From: Psychroserpens luteolus
Lineage (GTDB): Bacteria; Bacteroidota; Bacteroidia; Flavobacteriales; Flavobacteriaceae
Assembly (NCBI RefSeq): GCF_021032705.1
Contig: NZ_JAHVXI010000003.1
Location: forward strand, 364,142-428,141
Length of the DNA: 64,000 nucleotides
Reading direction: 5' to 3'
The notes under the pieces are model-generated. The model had not been told where the DNA came from, did not search any database, and worked only from the letters and a program-made list of their open reading frames with translations. Shown here piece by piece: positions 1-12,178 of the stretch (the first letter of the stretch is position 1; each line of letters starts with the position of its first letter). The translations under genes were made by a program, and so were the position numbers.

Positions 1-3000
1 CATCACTAGTGGTTCCTGTTAGCGTTCCTGAACAGTTATCACTTGTTGTTGGCGCTGTTGCTGTGGCTGAGCATTCACCTGTCACATCAGCTAGTGTTGG
101 TATGGTTGGATCTGTGACATCATCGACAATCACATTCTGTGGTACGACAATCACATTACCATTGCCATCATCAAAGGTCCAATTGATTACAAAGGTTCCT
201 TGGGTGTTATAAGTCAGTGCGTCACTGGTTGTTCCTGTTAGTGTTCCTGAACAGTTATCACTAGTTGTTGGAGCGGTTGCTGTGGCTGAACATTCACCTG
301 TCACATCAGCCAGTGTTGGTATGGTTGGATCTGTGACATCATCGATAATCACATTCTGTGGTACGACAATCACATTACCATTTCCATCATCAAAGGTCCA
401 GTTGATCACAAAGGTTCCTTGGGTGTTATAAGTCAGTGCATCACTGGTGGTTCCAGTTAGCGTTCCTGAACAATTATCACTTGTTGTTGGTGCTGTTGCT
501 GTGGCTGAACATTCACCTGTCACATCAGCTAGTGTTGGTATGGTTGGATCTGTGACATCATCCACAATCACATTTTGTGGTACGACAATCACATTACCAT
601 TTCCATCATCAAAGGTCCAGTTGATCACAAAGGTTCCTTGGGTGTTATAAGTCAGTGCATCGGATGTTGTGCCTGTTAGTGTTCCTGAACAGTTATCACT
701 TGTTGTTGGAGCGGTTGCTGTGGCTGAACATTCACCTGTCACATCAGCCAGTGTTGGTATGGTTGGATCTGTGACATCATCAACAATCACATTCTGTGGT
801 ACGACAATCACATTACCATTACTATCATCAAAGGTCCAATTGATTACAAATGTCCCTTGGGTGTTATAAGTCAGTGCGTCACTAGTGGTTCCTGTTAGTG
901 TTCCTGAACAATTATCACTGGTTGTTGGAGCGGTTGCTGTTGCTGAACATTCACCTGTCACATCAGCTAGTGTTGGTATGGTTGGATCTGTGACATCATC
1001 GACAATCACATTTTGTGGTACAACAATCACATTACCATTTCCATCATCAAAGGTCCAGTTGATCACAAAGGTTCCTTGGGTGTTATAAGTCAGTGCATCA
1101 CTAGTGGTTCCAGTTAGTGTTCCTGAACAATTATCACTTGTTGTTGGTGCTGTTGCTGTGGCTGAACATTCACCTGTCACATCAGCTAGTGTTGGTATGG
1201 TTGGATCTGTGACATCATCCACAATCACATTTTGTGGTACGACAATCACATTACCATTTCCATCATCAAAGGTCCAGTTGATCACAAAGGTTCCTTGGGT
1301 GTTATAAGTCAGTGCGTCACTAGTGGTTCCTGTTAGCGTTCCTGAACAATTATCACTGGTTGTTGGTGCTGTTGCTGTGGCTGAACATTCACCTGTCACA
1401 TCAGCTAGTGTTGGTATGGTTGGATCTGTGACATCATCGACAATCACATTCTGTGGTACGACAATCACATTACCATTTCCATCATCAAAGGTCCAATTGA
1501 TCACAAAGGTTCCTTGGGTGTTATATGTTAGTGCATCAGATGTTGTGCCTGTTAGCGTTCCTGAACAGTTATCACTTGTTGTTGGTGCGGTTGCTGTGGC
1601 TGAGCATTCACCTGTCACATCAGCTAGTGTTGGTATGGTTGGATCTGTGACATCATCAACAATCACATTCTGTGGTACGACAATCACATTGCCATTACTA
1701 TCATCAAAGGTCCAATTGATTACAAATGTCCCTTGGGTGTTATAAGTCAGTGCGTCACTAGTGGTTCCTGTTAGTGTTCCTGAACAGTTATCACTGGTTG
1801 TTGGTGCTGTTGCTGTTGCTGAACATTCACCTGTCACATCAGCTAGTGTTGGTATGGTTGGATCTGTGACATCATCAACAATCACATTCTGTGGTACGAC
1901 AATCACATTACCATTGCCATCATCAAAGGTCCAGTTGATCACAAAGGTTCCTTGGGTGTTATAAGTCAGTGCATCACTAGTGGTTCCAGTTAGTGTTCCT
2001 GAACAATTATCACTTGTTGTTGGTGCTGTTGCTGTGGCTGAACATTCACCTGTCACATCAGCTAGTGTTGGTATGGTTGGATCTGTGACATCATCCACAA
2101 TCACATTTTGTGGTACGACAATCACATTACCATTTCCATCATCAAAGGTCCAGTTGATCACAAAGGTTCCTTGGGTGTTATAAGTCAGTGCGTCACTAGT
2201 GGTTCCTGTTAGCGTTCCTGAACAATTATCACTGGTTGTTGGTGCTGTTGCTGTGGCTGAACATTCACCTGTCACATCAGCCAGTGTTGGTATGGTTGGA
2301 TCTGTGACATCATCAACGATCACATTCTGTGGTACGACAATCACATTGCCATTTCCATCATCAAAGGTCCAGTTGATCACAAAGGTTCCTTGGGTGTTAT
2401 AAGTCAGTGCATCGGATGTTGTGCCTGTTAGCGTTCCTGAACAGTTATCACTTGTTGTTGGCGCTGTTGCTGTGGCTGAACATTCACCTGTCACATCAGC
2501 CAGTGTTGGTATGGTTGGATCTGTGACATCATCGACAATCACATTCTGTGGTACGACAATCACATTACCATTTCCATCATCAAAAGTCCAGTTGATTACA
2601 AAGGTTCCTTGGGTGTTATAAGTCAGTGCGTCACTGGTGGTTCCTGTTAGCGTTCCTGAACAGTTATCACTTGTTGTTGGTGCTGTTGCTGTGGCTGAAC
2701 ATTCGCCTGTCACATCAGCTAGTGTTGGTATGGTTGGATCTGTGACATCATCGATAATCACATTCTGTGGTACGACAATCACATTACCATTTCCATCATC
2801 AAAGGTCCAGTTAATCACAAAGGTTCCTTGGGTGTTATAAGTCAGTGCGTCACTGGTTGTTCCTGTTAGCGTTCCTGAACAGTTATCACTTGTTGTTGGA
2901 GCGGTTGCTGTGGCTGAACATTCGCCTGTCACATCAGCTAGTGTTGGTATGGTTGGATCTGTAACATCATCAACAATCACATTTTGTGGTACAACAATCA

Positions 3001-3398
3001 CATTACCATTTCCATCATCAAAGGTCCAGTTAATCACAAAGGTTCCTTGGGTGTTATAAATCAGTGCGTCACTGGTGGTTCCAGTTAGCGTTCCTGAACA
3101 GTTATCACTTGTTGTTGGAGCGGTTGCTGTGGCTGAACATTCACCTGTCACATCAGCCAGTGTTGGTATGGTTGGATCTGTGACATCATCGACAATCACA
3201 TTTTGTGGTACGACAATTACATTACCATTGCCATCATCAAAGGTCCAGTTGATCACAAAGGTTCCTTGGGTGTTATAAGTCAGTGCATCGGATGTTGTGC
3301 CTGTTAGTGTTCCTGAACAGTTATCACTTGTTGTTGGAGCGGTTGCTGTGGCTGAACATTCACCTGTCACATCAGCCAGTGTTGGTATGGTTGGATCT
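1..3398 (-). repeat. Tandem array of 219-bp units (about 15.5 copies) encoding HYR-like domains
   Basis: The same 219-bp unit recurs with anchors at 9, 228, 447, 666 and so on every 219 bases up to 3294. The period is exactly 73 codons, so frame is kept. Copies differ by only a few bases, for example GGC/GGA/AGT in the DDGN codon and alternative spellings of TTSD. The variants are shuffled among copies, as expected from gene conversion or unequal crossing-over. Homogeneity stops sharply near 3399, where a related but clearly diverged unit begins. Copy number is likely to vary between strains and to be difficult to assemble with short reads. Confidence 0.95.
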
Positions 3399-4465
3399 GA
3401 AATATCATCAATAACCACATTTTGTGTTTGCGTGCTAGTATTACCATTTCCGTCGTCATAAGTCCATGTTACCACAGTCGTTCCTTGAGTTGAAATTGGT
3501 AAGGTAGCATCATTGGTCACTGTTACAGTCCCTCCACAATTATCAGTAGCAGTTGGAGCTGTTAAACTAGTAACTTCACATTCGGCTGTGACATCTGATA
3601 AATTAGCAACGTCTGGTATTGGAGCCAAACTATCTTCAACTAAAACAGTTGCCGTACAGGTATCTGTTTGTCCGCTAGTATCAGTAACCGTTAATGTGAC
3701 TGTATTATTTCCAAGATTAGTACAATTAAAAGTATTAGGAGACACACTTAAACTGGCAATTCCAAAATCATCAGTACTACCTCCATCTACATTGGCAGCT
3801 GTTATAGTTACATTACCAGTAGCATCCAATTGCGCTGTAAAATTAGAACATACAGCTGTAGGCGGATTATCCATTCTGAATAGTGCCTTATAGTTATTTG
3901 GTGCAATAGGTCCAGCTCCATCCGGATCATTATTTGCAAAATGTGTTCCGTCCAAATCAGAATTTGTTCCTACGGTAATATCACTATCATAATCTGCATG
4001 CGTATACATTTCAATAATATAATCTCCAGAAGGTAATCCGTTAATAATATTTATACCAGCTCCTGAAGACTCCCAAGTTTGATCAGTACTAGTGCCTCCA
4101 CAAAAATTAGATGTAGGGTCATTTGCCCCAAATAGAATTGCAGATGATGTAAAAACTGGAGGAGTAGCCGAAGCCAAATAAACTCTATAGTTAAACCAAC
4201 CATTAAATATATTATGCACACCACATTTGTATACCTTATTCTGAGCGCCATTTAATATGAATGTACTAGTAGGTGTGAACGTTCCTAGGTTTGCTCCATC
4301 AAAATCGATATTTGCGGTTGTGGCTTGTAGATCGTAATAGGTATTTCCAGATCCTGTATCTAAAATAGCATAACTCTCATAAATTCCAGATTGGGCATTT
4401 GAGGCTATATTTCCGAAGATAAAAAACGCAAAAGCGTATACAATTAAACGTACTCCTTTCATCAT
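1..4465 (-). CDS. Giant secreted HYR-repeat adhesin-like protein (3'-truncated by window edge)
   Basis: The reading frame is open without a stop from the ATG pair at 4465/4462 to the left window edge, so at least 1488 codons are present and the C-terminus is missing. The N-terminus (MMKGVRLIVYAFAFFIFGN...) is a typical signal peptide ending near NAQS. Residues about 25-190 form a unique domain of unknown type. One diverged HYR (Ig-like) unit follows, with DNPP-TAVC and DTCTATV motifs. A second, 76-residue unit comes next, then about 15.5 near-identical 73-residue units. Each unit has two Cys (TGEC, SDNC) and an acidic DDGNGN loop, which fits a disulfide and perhaps calcium binding. HYR proteins of Flavobacteriia are usually surface adhesins exported by T9SS. 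The sorting domain would lie outside the window, so that part is inference. Short open frames on the opposite strand are shadows of the repeat. Confidence 0.88.
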   Translation of the reverse strand, partial: MMKGVRLIVYAFAFFIFGNIASNAQSGIYESYAILDTGSGNTYYDLQATTANIDFDGANLGTFTPTSTFILNGAQNKVYKCGVHNIFNGWFNYRVYLASATPPVFTSSAILFGANDPTSNFCGGTSTDQTWESSGAGINIINGLPSGDYIIEMYTHADYDSDITVGTNSDLDGTHFANNDPDGAGPIAPNNYKALFRMDNPPTAVCSNFTAQLDATGNVTITAANVDGGSTDDFGIASLSVSPNTFNCTNLGNNTVTLTVTDTSGQTDTCTATVLVEDSLAPIPDVANLSDVTAECEVTSLTAPTATDNCGGTVTVTNDATLPISTQGTTVVTWTYDDGNGNTSTQTQNVVIDDISDPTIPTLADVTGECSATATAPTTSDNCSGTLTGTTSDALTYNTQGTFVINWTFDDGNGNVIVVPQNVIVDDVTDPTIPTLADVTGECSATATAPTTSDNCSGTLTGTTSDALIYNTQGTFVINWTFDDGNGNVIVVPQNVIVDDVTDPTIPTLADVTGECSATATAPTTSDNCSGTLTGTTSDALTYNTQGTFVINWTFDDGNGNVIVVPQNVIIDDVTDPTIPTLADVTGECSATATAPTTSDNCSGTLTGTTSDALTYNTQGTFVINWTFDDGNGNVIVVPQNVIVDDVTDPTIPTLADVTGECSATATAPTTSDNCSGTLTGTTSDALTYNTQGTFVINWTFDDGNGNVIVVPQNVIVDDVTDPTIPTLADVTGECSATATAPTTSDNCSGTLTGTTSDALTYNTQGTFVINWTFDDGNGNVIVVPQNVIVDDVTDPTIPTLADVTGECSATATAPTTSDNCSGTLTGTTSDALTYNTQGTFVINWTFDDGNGNVIVVPQNVIVDDVTDPTIPTLADVTGECSATATAPTTSDNCSGTLTGTTSDALTYNTQGTFVINWTFDDSNGNVIVVPQNVIVDDVTDPTIPTLADVTGECSATATAPTTSDNCSGTLTGTTSDALTYNTQGTFVINWTFDDGNGNVIVVPQNVIVDDVTDPTIPTLADVTGECSATATAPTTSDNCSGTLTGTTSDALTYNTQGTFVINWTFDDGNGNVIVVPQNVIVDDVTDPTIPTLADVTGECSATATAPTTSDNCSGTLTGTTSDALTYNTQGTFVINWTFDDGNGNVIVVPQNVIVDDVTDPTIPTLADVTGECSATATAPTTSDNCSGTLTGTTSDALTYNTQGTFVINWTFDDSNGNVIVVPQNVIVDDVTDPTIPTLADVTGECSATATAPTTSDNCSGTLTGTTSDALTYNTQGTFVINWTFDDGNGNVIVVPQNVIVDDVTDPTIPTLADVTGECSATATAPTTSDNCSGTLTGTTSDALTYNTQGTFVINWTFDDGNGNVIVVPQNVIIDDVTDPTIPTLADVTGECSATATAPTTSDNCSGTLTGTTSDALTYNTQGTFVINWTFDDGNGNVIVVPQNVIVDDVTDPTIPTLADVTGECSATATAPTTSDNCSGTLTGTTSD

Positions 4466-4697: not shown

Positions 4698-6104
4698 CTA
4701 AACTTGTTTCAATTTCCAACGTCCTTTTTTAAACCAGACAATAGCAATAATAGAGATTAAAACTTCTGCCAAAACGATAGCTAAAAACACACCCATTGGA
4801 CCAAAATCAAAGGTGATGGCCATGAGATAAGCGAAAGGTAACTGGAACAACCAGAAACATATAAAATTGATAATAGTTGGCGTTATTGTATCTCCGGCAC
4901 CATTGAATGAATTAATGACTACCATTCCGTAGGCATAGAAAATATAGCCAGCAGCAATCACTCGTAAACAGAGACTTCCATTTTCGACCACATTAGGCTC
5001 TTGAGTAAACCACGAAATAATTTGAGGTGCAAAAACGAGATAAGCGACTGAGACAATTCCCATAAAATAGGCGCAGTATTTCCCTGTTTTCCAAACCGAT
5101 TGTTCGGCACGATCTGGCTGTTTTGCTCCTAAGTTTTGTCCTACTAAGGTTGCTGCAGCATTACTCATTCCCCAAGCAGGCATAAAGGTAAACATCATCA
5201 CACGAATAGCTATGGTATAACCTGCGAGAACCTCACTTCCGAATTCACTCATAATACGCATTAAGAAGACCCAAGATGATGTTCCGATAAGGAACTGTCC
5301 GATACCTCCTAAAGAGACTTTGATCAAGTTGAGCATCACACCCACTCTAAGGACGACATCTTTAAATCTGACTTTAATTTTACTCCAGCCATAGAACAGT
5401 ACTAGCAGTTGGAATATGACTGCAGATCCACGACCAATTGTCGTTGCAATGGCGGCACCTTCAACACCAAAAGCTGGTATGGGACCGAATCCAAAAATAA
5501 ACATTGGATCAAGGATAATGTTGAGCCCGTTAGATAAAATCAACGTCCACATCGCAATCGATGCATCGCCAGCACCTCTAAATATCGCATTGATCAAAAA
5601 CAGTAACATTATGGTCACATTTCCACCCAAAAGCACTTGTGTATAACCGTAACCTTCAGCAATAAGATCGGGTTCACCTCCCATAAGTCCTAAAATTTCC
5701 TTCGGAAATAGGATGCCGATCACACTAATAACAGCAGCGACAGCTATACCCAAAATAATCACTTGAACAGCGGCTCGTGAAGCACCTTCCTCATCTTTTT
5801 CACCAATACGACGTGCAACAATAGCCGTTGCTGCCATACTAAGACCAATAGCAACGGCATAAACGAGTGTCACAACAGATTCGGTTAAACCGATGGTTGC
5901 GACAGCGTTTACACTCACCTTTGATACGTAGAAGATATCGACAACAGCGAAAATGGATTCCATGAGCATTTCCAGAATCATAGGAATGGATAGCATAAAG
6001 ACTGCTTTTCGAATACTACCTGATGTAAATTCTTGCTCTTTACCAGAAACTGCTTGTTTAAGGTATTTAAAAAATTGTGGGATTGATATGTTTGATTTTG
6101 ACAT
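4698..6104 (-). CDS. MATE family multidrug/sodium antiporter
   Basis: This 468-residue integral membrane protein has about 12 predicted hydrophobic segments and the two-fold MatE layout. Near the N-terminus it reads SIPMILEMLMESIFAVVD, typical of the first MatE half; the second half begins around GQFLIGTSSWVFLMRIMSEF. MATE proteins export cationic drugs and metabolites in exchange for Na+ or H+ across the inner membrane. The start at 6104 (MSKSNISI) is preferred over an in-frame one 12 codons upstream because it gives the usual N-terminus and leaves room for a promoter. The gene stands alone, with an inverted repeat upstream that could be an operator. Substrate cannot be told from sequence. 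Confidence 0.9.
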   Translation of the reverse strand: MSKSNISIPQFFKYLKQAVSGKEQEFTSGSIRKAVFMLSIPMILEMLMESIFAVVDIFYVSKVSVNAVATIGLTESVVTLVYAVAIGLSMAATAIVARRIGEKDEEGASRAAVQVIILGIAVAAVISVIGILFPKEILGLMGGEPDLIAEGYGYTQVLLGGNVTIMLLFLINAIFRGAGDASIAMWTLILSNGLNIILDPMFIFGFGPIPAFGVEGAAIATTIGRGSAVIFQLLVLFYGWSKIKVRFKDVVLRVGVMLNLIKVSLGGIGQFLIGTSSWVFLMRIMSEFGSEVLAGYTIAIRVMMFTFMPAWGMSNAAATLVGQNLGAKQPDRAEQSVWKTGKYCAYFMGIVSVAYLVFAPQIISWFTQEPNVVENGSLCLRVIAAGYIFYAYGMVVINSFNGAGDTITPTIINFICFWLFQLPFAYLMAITFDFGPMGVFLAIVLAEVLISIIAIVWFKKGRWKLKQV

Positions 6105-6162
6105 GATTGTTAGTTGAAATATGAAAACTACCAAAAGCAAAAATGCTAATGGCTACTATAAA

Positions 6163-6180: not shown

Positions 6181-6327
6181 GTATGGCGAAGTGTGAGCTT
6201 AAACAATCATGAGTCAAAGATGCAATTTTCTTTTTAAATATCAAAAAATTGAATTTTATTCTTTTTTCTTATACTCTAAAATCGACCCTAAGATTTAGCA
6301 GACGAGCGGCAACACAAAGTAGATGCC

Positions 6328-6715
6328 GTTAAAAAATGAAATGCTGTTTGAGTGCAGCGAGTTCATTTTATTTAACCAGCGTGTAGAAACTTGAATGCCG
6401 AAAACCCAGGTTTTAAAGTTTTCTGATACTTTTTTTAGCAATGAAAAATTGATTAATTAATTCTTTCATTCATTTTGTCTTGATACAAAACGAACCAAAA
6501 AATCAAAACCGTTTGTTAGGAAATTACTGCGTATCGCTCGCTCTTTATATAAATGAAATATGCTTATTGATTATAATATCTGACTGTGTCCTAATGTCAT
6601 CTTTTAAATTTAAAATAGTTGCTCACTATTTCTTAAAACGGCTATATTGGGCAAACAAGACAATTATTATCCGAAATTTAAAGCTTGTGACACTTCGTCG
6701 AACTTAAACGCACCT
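6328..6715 (+). repeat. Structured intergenic repeat, copy A
   Basis: This stretch fills most of the 700-bp gap between the MATE and HAD genes. It matches the gap at 11.3-11.7 kb in inverted orientation. Two parts are seen. A hairpin at 6328-6376 has AT-rich arms enclosing CTGTTTGAG. A core at 6471-6715 contains a TTTTGT-CTTGAT-ACAAAA hairpin, the word CGTTTGTTAGGAA, and a 41-base block (6600-6640) identical to 11501-11541 on the other strand. That block holds the hairpin AAATAGT-TGCTC-ACTATTT. No convincing coding frame is present. Function is unknown; a mobile non-autonomous element or a structured RNA are both possible. Confidence 0.8.
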
Positions 6716-6804: not shown

Positions 6805-7470
6805 ATGTTCAAAGCTGCCTTATTTGATATGGACGGTGTAGTTGTAGACTCCGAGCCATTGCACAATAAAGCCTACTATCAAATGTTTGACGATGTCAAC
6901 ATCCAAGTCTCAGACGAACTCTATGCCTCATTTACGGGTCAGTCTACTTTAGAGATTTGTAAACAACTCATATCGCATTTCGATTTACCTTTAGGTCCGC
7001 AAACCTTAGTCGATATCAAACGTCATCATTTTAAACACCTTTTTGACACTGATACCTCTTTACATTTATTAGATGGTGTATTAGACCTCATCAAAGATTA
7101 TTATAGTCATGGTATGGCTTTAGTTCTGGCCTCTTCGGCGTCGATGGTCAATATCAATCGTGTTTTTGAGCGTTTTGACTTGGACCAATATTTTGTGGCG
7201 AAGATTTCTGGTGCTGATCTTAAACAATCTAAACCACATCCTGAAATTTTTGAAAAAGCTGCTGAATTGTCTGGTCACGATCCAAAAGACTGTTTTGTGA
7301 TAGAAGATTCTACCAATGGAATTGCTGCTGCGAAAGCCGCTAATATCTATTGCATTGGCTACGATAGCTTGCATAGTGAAGATCAGGATTACTCCAAAGC
7401 CGATTTGGTGGTTTCAGATTTTGCTGATATTAGTTTTGATCGTTTAAAAGCAAAACTTGCAACGGCCTAA
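6805..7470 (+). CDS. HAD-superfamily phosphatase, beta-phosphoglucomutase-like
   Basis: This 221-residue cytoplasmic protein carries all HAD motifs. DMDGVVVDSEP near residue 8 holds the nucleophile and acid/base Asp. LASSAS supplies the motif-II Ser, KQSKPHPEIF the motif-III Lys, and FVIEDSTNGIAAAKAA the metal-binding acidic residues. The helical cap inserted after motif I places it with the beta-phosphoglucomutase / phosphoglycolate phosphatase subfamily. The start at 6805 (MFKAALFD) is chosen because the upstream in-frame codons add an unrelated hydrophobic stretch absent from the family. The substrate is probably a small sugar phosphate, but this is inference. It has no operon partners. 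Confidence 0.85.
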   Translation: MFKAALFDMDGVVVDSEPLHNKAYYQMFDDVNIQVSDELYASFTGQSTLEICKQLISHFDLPLGPQTLVDIKRHHFKHLFDTDTSLHLLDGVLDLIKDYYSHGMALVLASSASMVNINRVFERFDLDQYFVAKISGADLKQSKPHPEIFEKAAELSGHDPKDCFVIEDSTNGIAAAKAANIYCIGYDSLHSEDQDYSKADLVVSDFADISFDRLKAKLATA

Positions 7471-9810: not shown

Positions 9811-9835
9811 CAATATGAAAGTCTACCGAAATAAT

Positions 9836-9916
9836 TCATCTATAATCCCAATCCACCATATCATAAGTCCGAATTAACCACATGCAACAAAGTATGACGC
9901 ATACCAATACAAACCC
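9836..9916 (-). pseudogene. Decayed 3' fragment of the 37-residue membrane protein gene
   Basis: Read on the minus strand, this stretch encodes GFVLVCVILCCMWLIRTYD... and ends in TGA. It parallels GFVSVCVVIWAIWLIRAYD... of the intact small gene at 10495-10608. The DNA is about three-quarters identical by eye over 78 bases without gaps. Only the 3' two-thirds is present and there is no start codon. It lies directly after the TAG stop of the DUF4255 gene and in the same frame. Confidence 0.7.
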
Positions 9917-10432
9917 CTAACCTTTAACAGAAGGTAGATCTTTAGTACTACCGTCATCAGAGCTTACCATGACACGTAATTTATACACTGCTGAAGGCTG
10001 GTACCCTGCGCCTAATCCTTGCCAAAGTAATGCTTGTCCATCTAAAGTTTGTGTATAACTTTCAATAGTTATACGTTCTATAGGCTCTGGTAAGTCTGAA
10101 TGGACTTGTCGGTTTAAGAGTTGATTTTGATCTAACCAATTGGTAGTGGCTTCCAATAATTTAAGCGCTTCCTCATAGGATACCTCAGGATTGGTAGAAA
10201 TCAAGATATATAGTTGTTTTTGTGTAGGCGCACTAGTTGCCGAACGCGTTCTACCAATAGCTACATGATGTGCATGCTCAGGGTCAATATTAACCAAGGT
10301 TAACCGCAATGGCGTTTGCACCGATGATGTGTTTACACCTCCCAAACTCATAATTGGAGGTGGCACACCCAGTTCATTTTGGAGTACCCTATTTAAAATG
10401 GTATTGATAAAACGTAAGCTGTCTAGTATCAT
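9917..10432 (-). CDS. Lone DUF4255 / Pvc16-type protein
   Basis: The 171-residue product fits the Pvc16 N-terminal family (DUF4255), proteins of extracellular contractile injection systems. Supporting features are the start MILDSLRFINTILNRVL, LTLVNIDPEH, the LYILISTNPEVSYEEALKLL segment, RITIESYTQ and the closing WQGLGAGYQPSAVYKLRVM. In known clusters this gene sits beside tube, sheath and baseplate genes, but none is present here. ATG at 10432 is chosen; a GTG at 10498 would add 22 residues outside the domain and overlap the upstream gene. It is bracketed by an intact and a broken copy of the small gene, so its arrival may be tied to that duplication. Confidence 0.75.
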   Translation of the reverse strand: MILDSLRFINTILNRVLQNELGVPPPIMSLGGVNTSSVQTPLRLTLVNIDPEHAHHVAIGRTRSATSAPTQKQLYILISTNPEVSYEEALKLLEATTNWLDQNQLLNRQVHSDLPEPIERITIESYTQTLDGQALLWQGLGAGYQPSAVYKLRVMVSSDDGSTKDLPSVKG

Positions 10433-10494
10433 GTGTATTGGCTTTATAATGCGAAAAGGTGTATTTGATTGTGTTGGCCGCTGTTTAGAGAAGT

Positions 10495-10608
10495 TCACCT
10501 ATTATCCCGATCCACCTTATCATAAGCGCGAATCAACCAGATGGCCCAAATGACAACGCAAACAGACACAAACCCTGAAAAGTATAATACGATATCGTTA
10601 GCGTCCAT
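10495..10608 (-). CDS. 37-residue single-span membrane protein
   Basis: ATG at 10608 opens a frame coding for MDANDIVLYFSGFVSVCV..., with one hydrophobic span (residues about 6-26) and a charged tail ending in YDKVDRDNR. The start lies inside the end of the upstream 61-residue gene (11-base overlap), which points to translational coupling. A degraded second copy of its 3' part at 9836-9916 shows that this frame has been under duplication and supports it being a real gene. Function is unknown. Confidence 0.65.
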   Translation of the reverse strand: MDANDIVLYFSGFVSVCVVIWAIWLIRAYDKVDRDNR

Positions 10609-10831: not shown

Positions 10832-10859
10832 TTGTTAACGTTTATGAACTTTATCTTTG
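10832..10859 (+). promoter_or_regulatory. Flavobacterial promoter for the DUF2452 gene
   Basis: TTG at 10832-10834 and TATCTTTG at 10852-10859 are 17 bases apart and match the TTG/TAnnTTTG pattern exactly. Transcription would start about 7 bases later, giving a short leader before the ATG at 10878. Confidence 0.65.
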
Positions 10860-10877
10860 CAAAATAATTTTGCTTCT

Positions 10878-11285
10878 ATGGCTACAGACAAAAAACCAGA
10901 CCAGATCGTATTTAATGAAGACACGCAACGCTACGATGCGTCTATAAAACCCTATGCCACCAATGTTGGTGCACCTGCGATTCAAGTCACTGGCAATTCT
11001 ACGTGGAAAAATCGCAACATCAATAAGGCCAATAAGCAGATTCAGGCCAAGTACCTAGAACTTAAAGCCGAGTATGATAAAATGATGCAAGAGCTAGAAT
11101 ACAATAATCTTGTCTATAATGCACGCTACAATTTTGAGCCAATCGTTGGCGAGACCTATCATCTCTATCGCGATACACAGGAGAAACCCTTCTTATCGAT
11201 TATTGCACCTAGTGATTGTAATTTTGATTTTATGGGGAGCTTTCTTTTAAATAGTGAACTGATTTGGAAAAAAGTTGATAACTAA
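10878..11285 (+). CDS. DUF2452 domain protein
   Basis: This 135-residue cytoplasmic protein shows the DUF2452 layout. It has an N-terminal DQIVFNEDTQRYDASI segment, ATNVGAPAI, a central Lys-rich coiled-coil-like helix (AKYLELKAEYDKMMQEL) and a C-terminal part with the GETYHLYRD and LSIIAPSDC motifs. The start MATDKKPDQ at 10878 follows a strong promoter by 18 bases. An alternative upstream start would overlap the promoter -7 box. Function is unknown; it is monocistronic and ends just before an intergenic repeat. Confidence 0.8.
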   Translation: MATDKKPDQIVFNEDTQRYDASIKPYATNVGAPAIQVTGNSTWKNRNINKANKQIQAKYLELKAEYDKMMQELEYNNLVYNARYNFEPIVGETYHLYRDTQEKPFLSIIAPSDCNFDFMGSFLLNSELIWKKVDN

Positions 11286-11291
11286 TTCTAT

Positions 11292-11725
11292 TTTCTTTTT
11301 TCCATTGATGAAAAAAGAAACAAAAAAATCTAGCCTTAATTTTAAATCTTACCCAATTCCGAATTGAAAGCTAAACAAAAATAACTCCATTTTGCTACTC
11401 GCAAAATCTCAAACAGATTTTTGTTTTTAACGCTTTCTACTTCGATTGGGTCCCAAGCTTTAAACTTAGGGCAGTTATTATCAATCTAGACTTTAATAAT
11501 CGTTTTAAGAAATAGTGAGCAACTATTTTAAATTTAAAAGACGACACTTGGAAACAATCAGATACTATAATGAATAAGCATATGCCATCTAAAAAAAAAG
11601 CGAGCGTTACGCAGTAAATGCGAAGCATTCACGAATACTTATGAAAAACAAATTAATTCAATGAGTAATTCCTAACAAACGATTTTGATTTTTTTGGTTC
11701 GTTTTTTTATCAAGAAAAAAATGAA
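11292..11725 (-). repeat. Structured intergenic repeat, copy B (inverted relative to copy A)
   Basis: This fills the gap between the DUF2452 gene and mscL. On the minus strand it repeats the core of copy A: CTTGAT hairpin, CGTTTGTTAGGAA, ACTGCGTAACGCTCGC and the identical 41-base block (11501-11541). Next comes a long hairpin (11366-11437) with CTGTTTGAG in its loop region and an inner stem ATTTTGC-TACTC-GCAAAAT. An extra insert of about 50 bases, absent from copy A, lies near 11590-11680. A separate perfect 11-bp hairpin (11292-11320) follows the DUF2452 stop. The arms of the CTGTTTGAG hairpin differ from copy A but remain complementary. Confidence 0.8.
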
Positions 11726-11737
11726 CAAAAGAAAAGT

Positions 11738-12178
11738 TTATTTCCCTTTCAACAACGCATTTTGCTCTTCCATTAAATCGGTGAGTTTTGAAAGCAACTC
11801 AATATCTTTAGGTGTCGCGACGACCTCATTTTTTGGGTCTTGGGCTTTACTTCTCAATCGATTCATCGCTTTAACTACTAAAAAGACTGTAAGTCCAACA
11901 ATAACAAAGTCCAGAAAGGTTTCAAAGAGCACTCCATATTCAATAGCGACCTCCTCCACTGTAATCTGACCTTCTGCATTAGTAACCGCATCTCTCATCA
12001 CATATTTCTGATCTTGAAAGTTGAGTCCGTCGGTCATTAAGGTTAATGGTGGCATAAATATCTTTTTTACCAGCACATCTATCACTTTATTGAATGCGGC
12101 TCCTATAATGATACCAATAGCCATATCCATCATATTTCCTTTAACTGCAAACTCTTTGAATTCCTTTAAAAACTTCAT
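11738..12178 (-). CDS. mscL: Large-conductance mechanosensitive channel MscL
   Basis: This 146-residue protein has the MscL signature MKFLKEFKEFAVKGNMMDMA followed by the Gly/Ala-rich first membrane helix (GIIIGAAFNKVIDVLV). A periplasmic loop, a second helix (FLDFVIVGLTVFLVVKAM) and a cytoplasmic C-terminal helix (LLSKLTDLMEEQNALLK) follow. The homopentamer opens under membrane tension to release solutes on osmotic downshock. Length and motifs are normal. It is monocistronic, with its own promoter at 12205-12235. Confidence 0.97.
   Translation of the reverse strand: MKFLKEFKEFAVKGNMMDMAIGIIIGAAFNKVIDVLVKKIFMPPLTLMTDGLNFQDQKYVMRDAVTNAEGQITVEEVAIEYGVLFETFLDFVIVGLTVFLVVKAMNRLRSKAQDPKNEVVATPKDIELLSKLTDLMEEQNALLKGK

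Follow-up and report, generated by a model that had tools for sequence, protein, structure and literature searches.

Two intergenic gaps in a 64-kb stretch of the Psychroserpens luteolus genome (hereafter the window; contig C32:364142-428141 of genome G000) hold members of a Bacteroidota-wide family of folded non-coding elements that is conserved by fold rather than by letters. The units are two linked hairpin classes carrying a similar tail, here called H1 and H2. The element described in the original prediction is H1, while H2, which it had missed, is the better conserved of the two. Because the helices are kept while the letters change, the folded shape is probably read by something in the cell.

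The relationship between the two gaps, both intergenic on the list of open reading frames (ORFs), is as had been proposed. They are related in opposite orientation through a 41-base block that is identical at 41/41 bases, and all exact inverted 24-mers of the window (18, overlapping) stem from this one pair. The expected similarity of about 80% around the block was recovered (80% identity over 168 nt and 87% complementarity over 122 nt), as were the shared word CGTTTGTTAGGAA (6510-6522 on the plus strand, 11669-11681 on the minus strand) and the hairpin AAATAGT-TGCTC-ACTATTT (6613-6631 and 11510-11528). Protein coding, already doubted, is rejected: open frames of 75 and 63 codons do exist, but they are not kept in relatives, the frame being shifted by a one-base insertion in the orthologous copy 1 of G006 (the closest relative) and interrupted in the copies that lie on the mscL side in G006 and G010. 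A phage or plasmid origin was also set aside, the 471-base copy 2 having no DNA match. Of the proposal of a dispersed, structured element, the mobile-type class with a structure kept far beyond this genome stands, but the block as the dispersed unit does not: it occurs exactly twice in G000, 5 kb apart, with a single near-copy in G006, and the suggested search for further copies, run with up to 3 mismatches, found none in 298 other family genomes. Nor is the AAATAGT/ACTATTT hairpin a conserved feature, since by eye it is absent from the mscL-side copy of G006 and from G010.

Table 1. Coordinates of the paired elements, the inverted block and the bordering genes in the window.
Feature	Positions	Strand	Remarks
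MatE-family transporter gene	4698..6140	-	borders gap 1; Pfam MatE 1.1e-66
H2-class element, copy 1	6284..6452	+	R1 match 6317-6389 (+), 61.5 bits; decayed tail ~6421-6452
H1-class element, copy 1	6465..6645	-	outer stem AGCCGTTTT/AAACGGTT; boxes AGAAAT, ATTTCCT; tail ~6465-6508
41-base block	6600..6640	+	inverted identity to 11501-11541; spans 5' arm side of H1
HAD-family hydrolase gene	6808..7470	+	borders gap 1; Pfam HAD_2 1.4e-29
DUF2452 gene	10857..11285	+	borders gap 2; Pfam DUF2452 3.7e-09
H2-class element, copy 2	11291..11473	-	R1 match 11357-11442 (-), 86.0 bits; tail ~11291-11333
H1-class element, copy 2	11498..11726	+	outer stem AATCGTTTT/AAACGATTT; tail 11685-11726
41-base block	11501..11541	-	inverted identity to 6600-6640
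mscL gene	11738..12178	-	borders gap 2; Pfam MscL 1.4e-35

Each gap contains one H1 and one H2 element, and each element is built from a long hairpin with imperfect pairing and, behind it, a T-rich tail of about 40 nt (Table 1; the ends in the window were placed by eye). H1 copy 1 takes in most of the interval 6471-6715 that had been singled out originally. The CTGTTTGAG box of H2 copy 1 lies at 6344-6352, and H2 copy 2 is a long hairpin with a closing stem GCC..GGC. Copy 1 is arranged tail to tail (H2 on the plus strand, H1 on the minus strand) and copy 2 head to head. The genes on either side of the latter converge, and each of their stop codons has a tail next to it, the H2 tail adjoining the DUF2452 gene and the H1 tail adjoining mscL. 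In G006, the mscL-side H1-H2 pair is inverted relative to that of G000.

The H2 core has the layout stem0-GTTAA-stem1-CTGTTTGAG-hairpin-CGAGTT-stem1'-TTTAG-stem0', and its stems covary strongly. In the seed alignment A2 (15 sequences from ten genomes and seven genera, aligned with MAFFT and chosen partly by flank pairing), 86.2% of the cells are paired versus 61.5% in shuffles, and the covariation score is 0.545 versus 0.180 in shuffled and at most 0.252 in slid alignments; L112, L127 and L128 (without the GTTAA word or the tail), L113 and L118 were excluded from the seed despite their ranking. A covariance model, which had been proposed as a check, finds relatives widely when built on the H2 core (R1): it matches 51 of 249 genomes (48 of 235 genera) within the Flavobacteriaceae and 22 of 395 across the Bacteroidota, nine of these 22 belonging to the same family, two to another family of the order and eleven lying outside the order. 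Copy numbers from R1 are lower bounds, with up to 18 (family) and up to 11 (phylum) candidates scored per genome; G000 has two H2 matches only, both inside the window. From 59 chosen loci we obtained 103 R1 matches, of which 52 were removed as at least 80% identical to a retained one, and in the alignment of the 51 non-redundant matches fitted to the R1 model (A3) the stem cells comprise 821 Watson-Crick, 42 G-U, 18 A-C and 76 other combinations. The bare pattern CTGTTTGAG..GAGTT proved useless on its own, its frequency in the genus being about equal to that of the reversed control, and a contig scan with a 20-mer from H2 picked up six stretches: three Psychroserpens isolates account for five of them, and a Paludibacter metagenome-assembled genome for the sixth.

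In H1, the outer stem enclosing the boxes AGAAAT and ATTTCCT is what relatives keep; in the two window copies this stem shows a paired change, CCG/CGG versus TCG/CGA. Among 12 sequences, the two arms of one outer stem match over 8.0 bp on average, versus 4.2 bp when arms of different sequences are combined, and 0 of 100,000 permutations were as good; this test is weaker than that of H2 because the arm pairs were chosen by hand (L006, in which no matching 5' arm was seen, was excluded). The H1 interior was judged too variable in length for a covariance model. The plus strand of the interval 6471-6715 folds no better than shuffles (z +0.44). On the tail strand, the fold reaches z -1.25 for H1 copy 1 (25 of 200 shuffles being equally good) and z -3.20 for copy 2, and the small AAATAGT/ACTATTT hairpin is predicted there. 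For both classes the pairing statistics lean towards structure, because the seed was flank-chosen, A3 was model-fitted and the H1 arms were hand-picked. G000 has an additional H1-type element within a few hundred bases of its tmRNA gene (L004, C52, 1507-1550 region).

The tail, which is not part of R1, follows the hairpin at a fixed distance: it lies 24-28 nt downstream of the R1 match in 41 of the 51 non-redundant matches (the other 10 are without a tail under the fuzzy rule), versus 6/51 for the same sense upstream and 9/51 and 3/51 for its reverse complement upstream and downstream, respectively. It is also present in 9/9 phylum-search loci besides the window, three of them outside the family. 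Two helices that cross each other are possible in the tail: S1 (TTGNN or TAGNN with NNCAA) and the A/T-rich S2. When both helices were sought with a perfect S1 anywhere in the stretch, 20/60 tails fitted versus 35/600 shuffles and 6/59 nearby stretches; a subsequent test that allowed at most one S1 mismatch and required the fixed place gave 36/60 versus 20/1200 shuffles and 8/236 nearby stretches, so that 24/60 tails do not fit both helices. A grammar enforcing S1 pairing retrieves 47 distinct tails in ~1.02 Mb and 0 in the reversed sequence. When S1 pairing is not required, the two variable positions show full complementarity in 40 of 65 distinct tails, in five combinations, and lack it in 25 (22/30 of the TTG form are complementary and 18/35 of the TAG form, in which the frequent AC/GG and CG/GG pair only in part). 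The length of the loop U-run follows that of the helix A-run (rho 0.77 over the 47 distinct tails, which are related to one another and whose A-run also matches its own Watson-Crick T-run), a correspondence that is suggestive only as a sign of a triple helix. With the second loop almost nil, S1 and S2 may form in each other's place instead of together as a pseudoknot.

A tail of this kind accompanies no fewer than two hairpin classes, H1 and H2. In the loci, tails followed H2 (47), TTCC-box sequences (22, a group that mixes H1 with the class of L151-L170) and others (28, some of which are chance matches in genes). Two further classes were noticed. One of them, GGCCTCAGTTTTAG..CTAAAA..GCAGCC, has the same kind of tail (L088, 3695-3900 and 3995; L146, L092, L206 and L174) and adjoins the end of a DUF2188 gene in G010, G006 and G007, where the gene end is repeated. 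The other, GGCCTAAGAGAATTTT..GTAAGCC followed by the tail (L151-L170), has well-kept letters and occurs in many Flavobacteriaceae genera.

The excess of G-U over A-C suggests that the tail strand is the one that folds: on that strand the model-fitted A3 alignment has the 42 to 18 given above, and a hand count over helices 2 and 3 of the MAFFT seed gives 9 to 3. Folding energy does not decide the matter, because the complementary H2 strand folds about equally well (for H2 copy 2, -50 kcal/mol and z -3.38 on the tail strand, -48.5 kcal/mol and z -6.20 on its complement). Of the 77 copies (among 90 rows, related copies included) that have both neighbours called from ORFs, 34 lie in sense and 14 in antisense between co-directional genes, 16 have divergent neighbours and 13 convergent ones. 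No conserved promoter was seen upstream of the unit in G144, where the flanks diverge at the unit start; in G097 the upstream side is occupied by another repeat.

Alignments covering G097, G144 and parts of G066 show that the copies in G097, which are near-identical, and those in G144 end sharply at common points, with unrelated sequence beyond. Closely spaced series of copies on the same strand occur in G066, G059, G394 and G539. The MatE-HAD gap holds copy 1 in G000 and G006, a different element in G007, and no complete element in eight congeners (an H1-core-like stretch was seen in G001 and a tail-like stretch in G011). The neighbouring HAD-mscL interval is an insertion hotspot in Psychroserpens: HAD and mscL are spaced by ~20-50 bp in four congeners (G002, G013, G019 and G020) and by ~4 kb in G000, 14 kb in G006 and 24 kb in G007, and in each of the latter three H2 copies lie at both sides. 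The target-site duplication that the original prediction proposed to look for was not recognised on aligning filled with empty sites, where the flanks were too diverged to define the join. As to the cargo of the hotspot, PADLOC reports a type I restriction-modification set in G006 (L085, 6221-15912), together with PtuA-like ATPase, PDC-M01B/PtuB-like and PDC-S14 proteins, and ORFs that look similar by eye are found in G007 (L086, L087). In G000, an 82-nt direct repeat (77%; 9835-9916 and 10494-10575) flanks a Pvc16_N gene (9917-10498). Elsewhere in the window, positions 3-3426 consist of 15.6 tandem copies of a 219-bp unit (93% matches), and long open frames run through the array, perhaps encoding a repetitive surface protein on the minus strand.

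Among known systems, the elements work most like REP/REPIN hairpins, yet they fall outside that group by the features compared here. Like REP, BIME and REPIN sequences they are short intergenic folded repeats that keep structure over letters, sometimes form inverted pairs and are non-autonomous; the hairpins described here differ in being ~130-250 nt long with an added tail. REP palindromes are described in one account as 20-40 bp long with a conserved GTAG/CGTC-type tag (PMC3733652), while H2 is a long hairpin with the boxes CTGTTTGAG and CGAGTT and a tail. Mobilisation of the RAYT/IS200 type is unsupported in G000, which has 0 matches to the Y1 transposase family (PF01797); 5 of 23 genus genomes have one. 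Across the family, Y1_Tnp was found in 23/51 H2-positive versus 62/198 H2-negative genomes (lists compared by hand), and the 28 of 51 H2-positive genomes without it show that Y1_Tnp is not required for H2; any association is at most weak.

The Flavo-1 motif (Rfam RF01705) is likewise a structured motif dispersed in Flavobacteriaceae, with hits said in one source to occur alike in sense or antisense (PMC9723704). It is present in 19 of 25 tested genomes that bear H2 or are congeners, and G000 has four matches, all outside the window. Identity with Flavo-1 is rejected: its model matches neither in the window nor in the 17 and 18 element loci scanned, its sequence and shape are different, and eight Flavo-1 loci that we inspected have no such tail. 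By eye, none of the listed Flavo-1 matches overlaps a listed H2 match; at G107:C42:821628-821916 the two lie ~80 bp apart, head to head. At the gathering threshold, Rfam 15 yields 0 families in the window, and its sole passing match in the element loci is the tmRNA gene of L004, away from the element; below threshold, STnc410 appears near the tails of L001 and L164 (E 2 and 2.4) and Phe_leader in L147 (E 0.84). In a literature search to which subscription journals were mostly external, no description was recognised as the H1/H2 motif.

Taken as a whole, the data are best explained, at roughly even confidence, by non-autonomous, mobile-type units conserved by fold. Each unit comprises a hairpin of ~130-250 nt, with a few fixed internal-loop words and freely exchanging stems, and, at a fixed distance after it, a T-rich tail of ~40 nt able to form the crossing helices S1 and S2. 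The unit would be spread by a hypothetical enzyme recognising the folded single strand together with its tail, either as ssDNA or as RNA, much as REP/REPIN hairpins are handled by their transposase. Several parts of this account are observed, namely covariation, the fixed hairpin-tail spacing, units in two genomes that end sharply against unrelated flanks, dispersed copies that are nearly identical, close same-strand series, and presence or absence at one site between congeners. Mobility by single-strand recognition is what we infer from them, with an RNA role as the main rival. Against our account count the presence of only two H2 matches in G000, the about equally good folding of the complementary H2 strand, and the non-random orientation, which an RNA or terminator role would fit too. 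According to that rival, which we consider unlikely but worth serious attention, the units are cis-acting RNA elements in which a hairpin and a U-tract end, pause or protect transcripts (as a terminator or a stabiliser of 3' ends); ordinary duplication would have spread them, and their usefulness in mRNA would have preserved them. The U-run after the hairpin in 41/51 matches, the preponderance of sense over antisense copies between co-directional genes, the G-U excess on the tail strand, an example beside his-operon-like genes in G144 (ORFs named by eye) and the place of window copy 2, with a tail at each stop codon of two convergent genes, all agree with it. However, a terminator would be idle in the 14/77 copies that are antisense between co-directional genes and in the 16/77 between divergent genes, the conserved internal-loop words and the second tail helix are superfluous to a simple terminator, and near-identical copies with unrelated flanks point to dispersal.

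The small, non-coding, multi-copy and intergenic nature of the elements and their sharp ends also recall MITEs, and the H1-H2 pair could be a deletion derivative of an insertion sequence with a DDE transposase, the tails being its terminal inverted repeats. Outward tails do bound the pair in copy 2 and in G006, forming inverted repeats that match imperfectly (74% over 35 nt), and the orientation of the pair is reversed between G000 and G006; but the usual unit is one-tailed, with a reverse-complement tail upstream in just 9/51 H2 matches, covarying hairpin stems are not required for end recognition by a DDE enzyme, and target-site duplications were not recognised, leaving this origin improbable. 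We think it far less probable still that an integron-like cassette system operates in the HAD-mscL hotspot with the elements as its recombination sites. Integron attC sites are folded single-strand sites with variable stems that carry paired RYYYAAC and GTTRRRY boxes at the fold ends. The variable stems, the same-strand series in some genomes and a cassette-like interval that gains genes between flanking H2 copies resemble such a system, whereas the paired boxes were not seen by eye in the 51 aligned H2 cores, which are part of the unit, and the close series lie inside single gaps rather than as one site per gene. That the two copies stem from just one old duplication within the region, or encode a short protein, and have no element function is scarcely credible: the exact block is confined to two copies 5 kb apart in G000 and both frames are open, but the structure is conserved far beyond the genus, which contradicts a duplication without kept structure, and the frame is lost in G006 and G010. 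A more far-reaching reading is in our estimation improbable. In it, the elements would be modular across the phylum, one kind of tail serving several unrelated hairpin bodies as an enzyme handle. With its crossing helices and its matched U- and A-tracts, the tail might fold into a pseudoknot that contains a U.A-U triple helix. Any RNA or ssDNA ending in it might be copied in trans by an enzyme such as a reverse transcriptase or a single-strand recombinase. If true, the tail would be a bacterial analogue of the SINE tail.

With the covariance model and the tail rule, copies can be counted, insertions mapped and expression tested directly. H2 offers a test case for the spread of non-coding hairpins without a RAYT transposase, and, being present in about one fifth of the Flavobacteriaceae genomes sampled, it would account for many gaps that carry no annotation in this abundant marine family.
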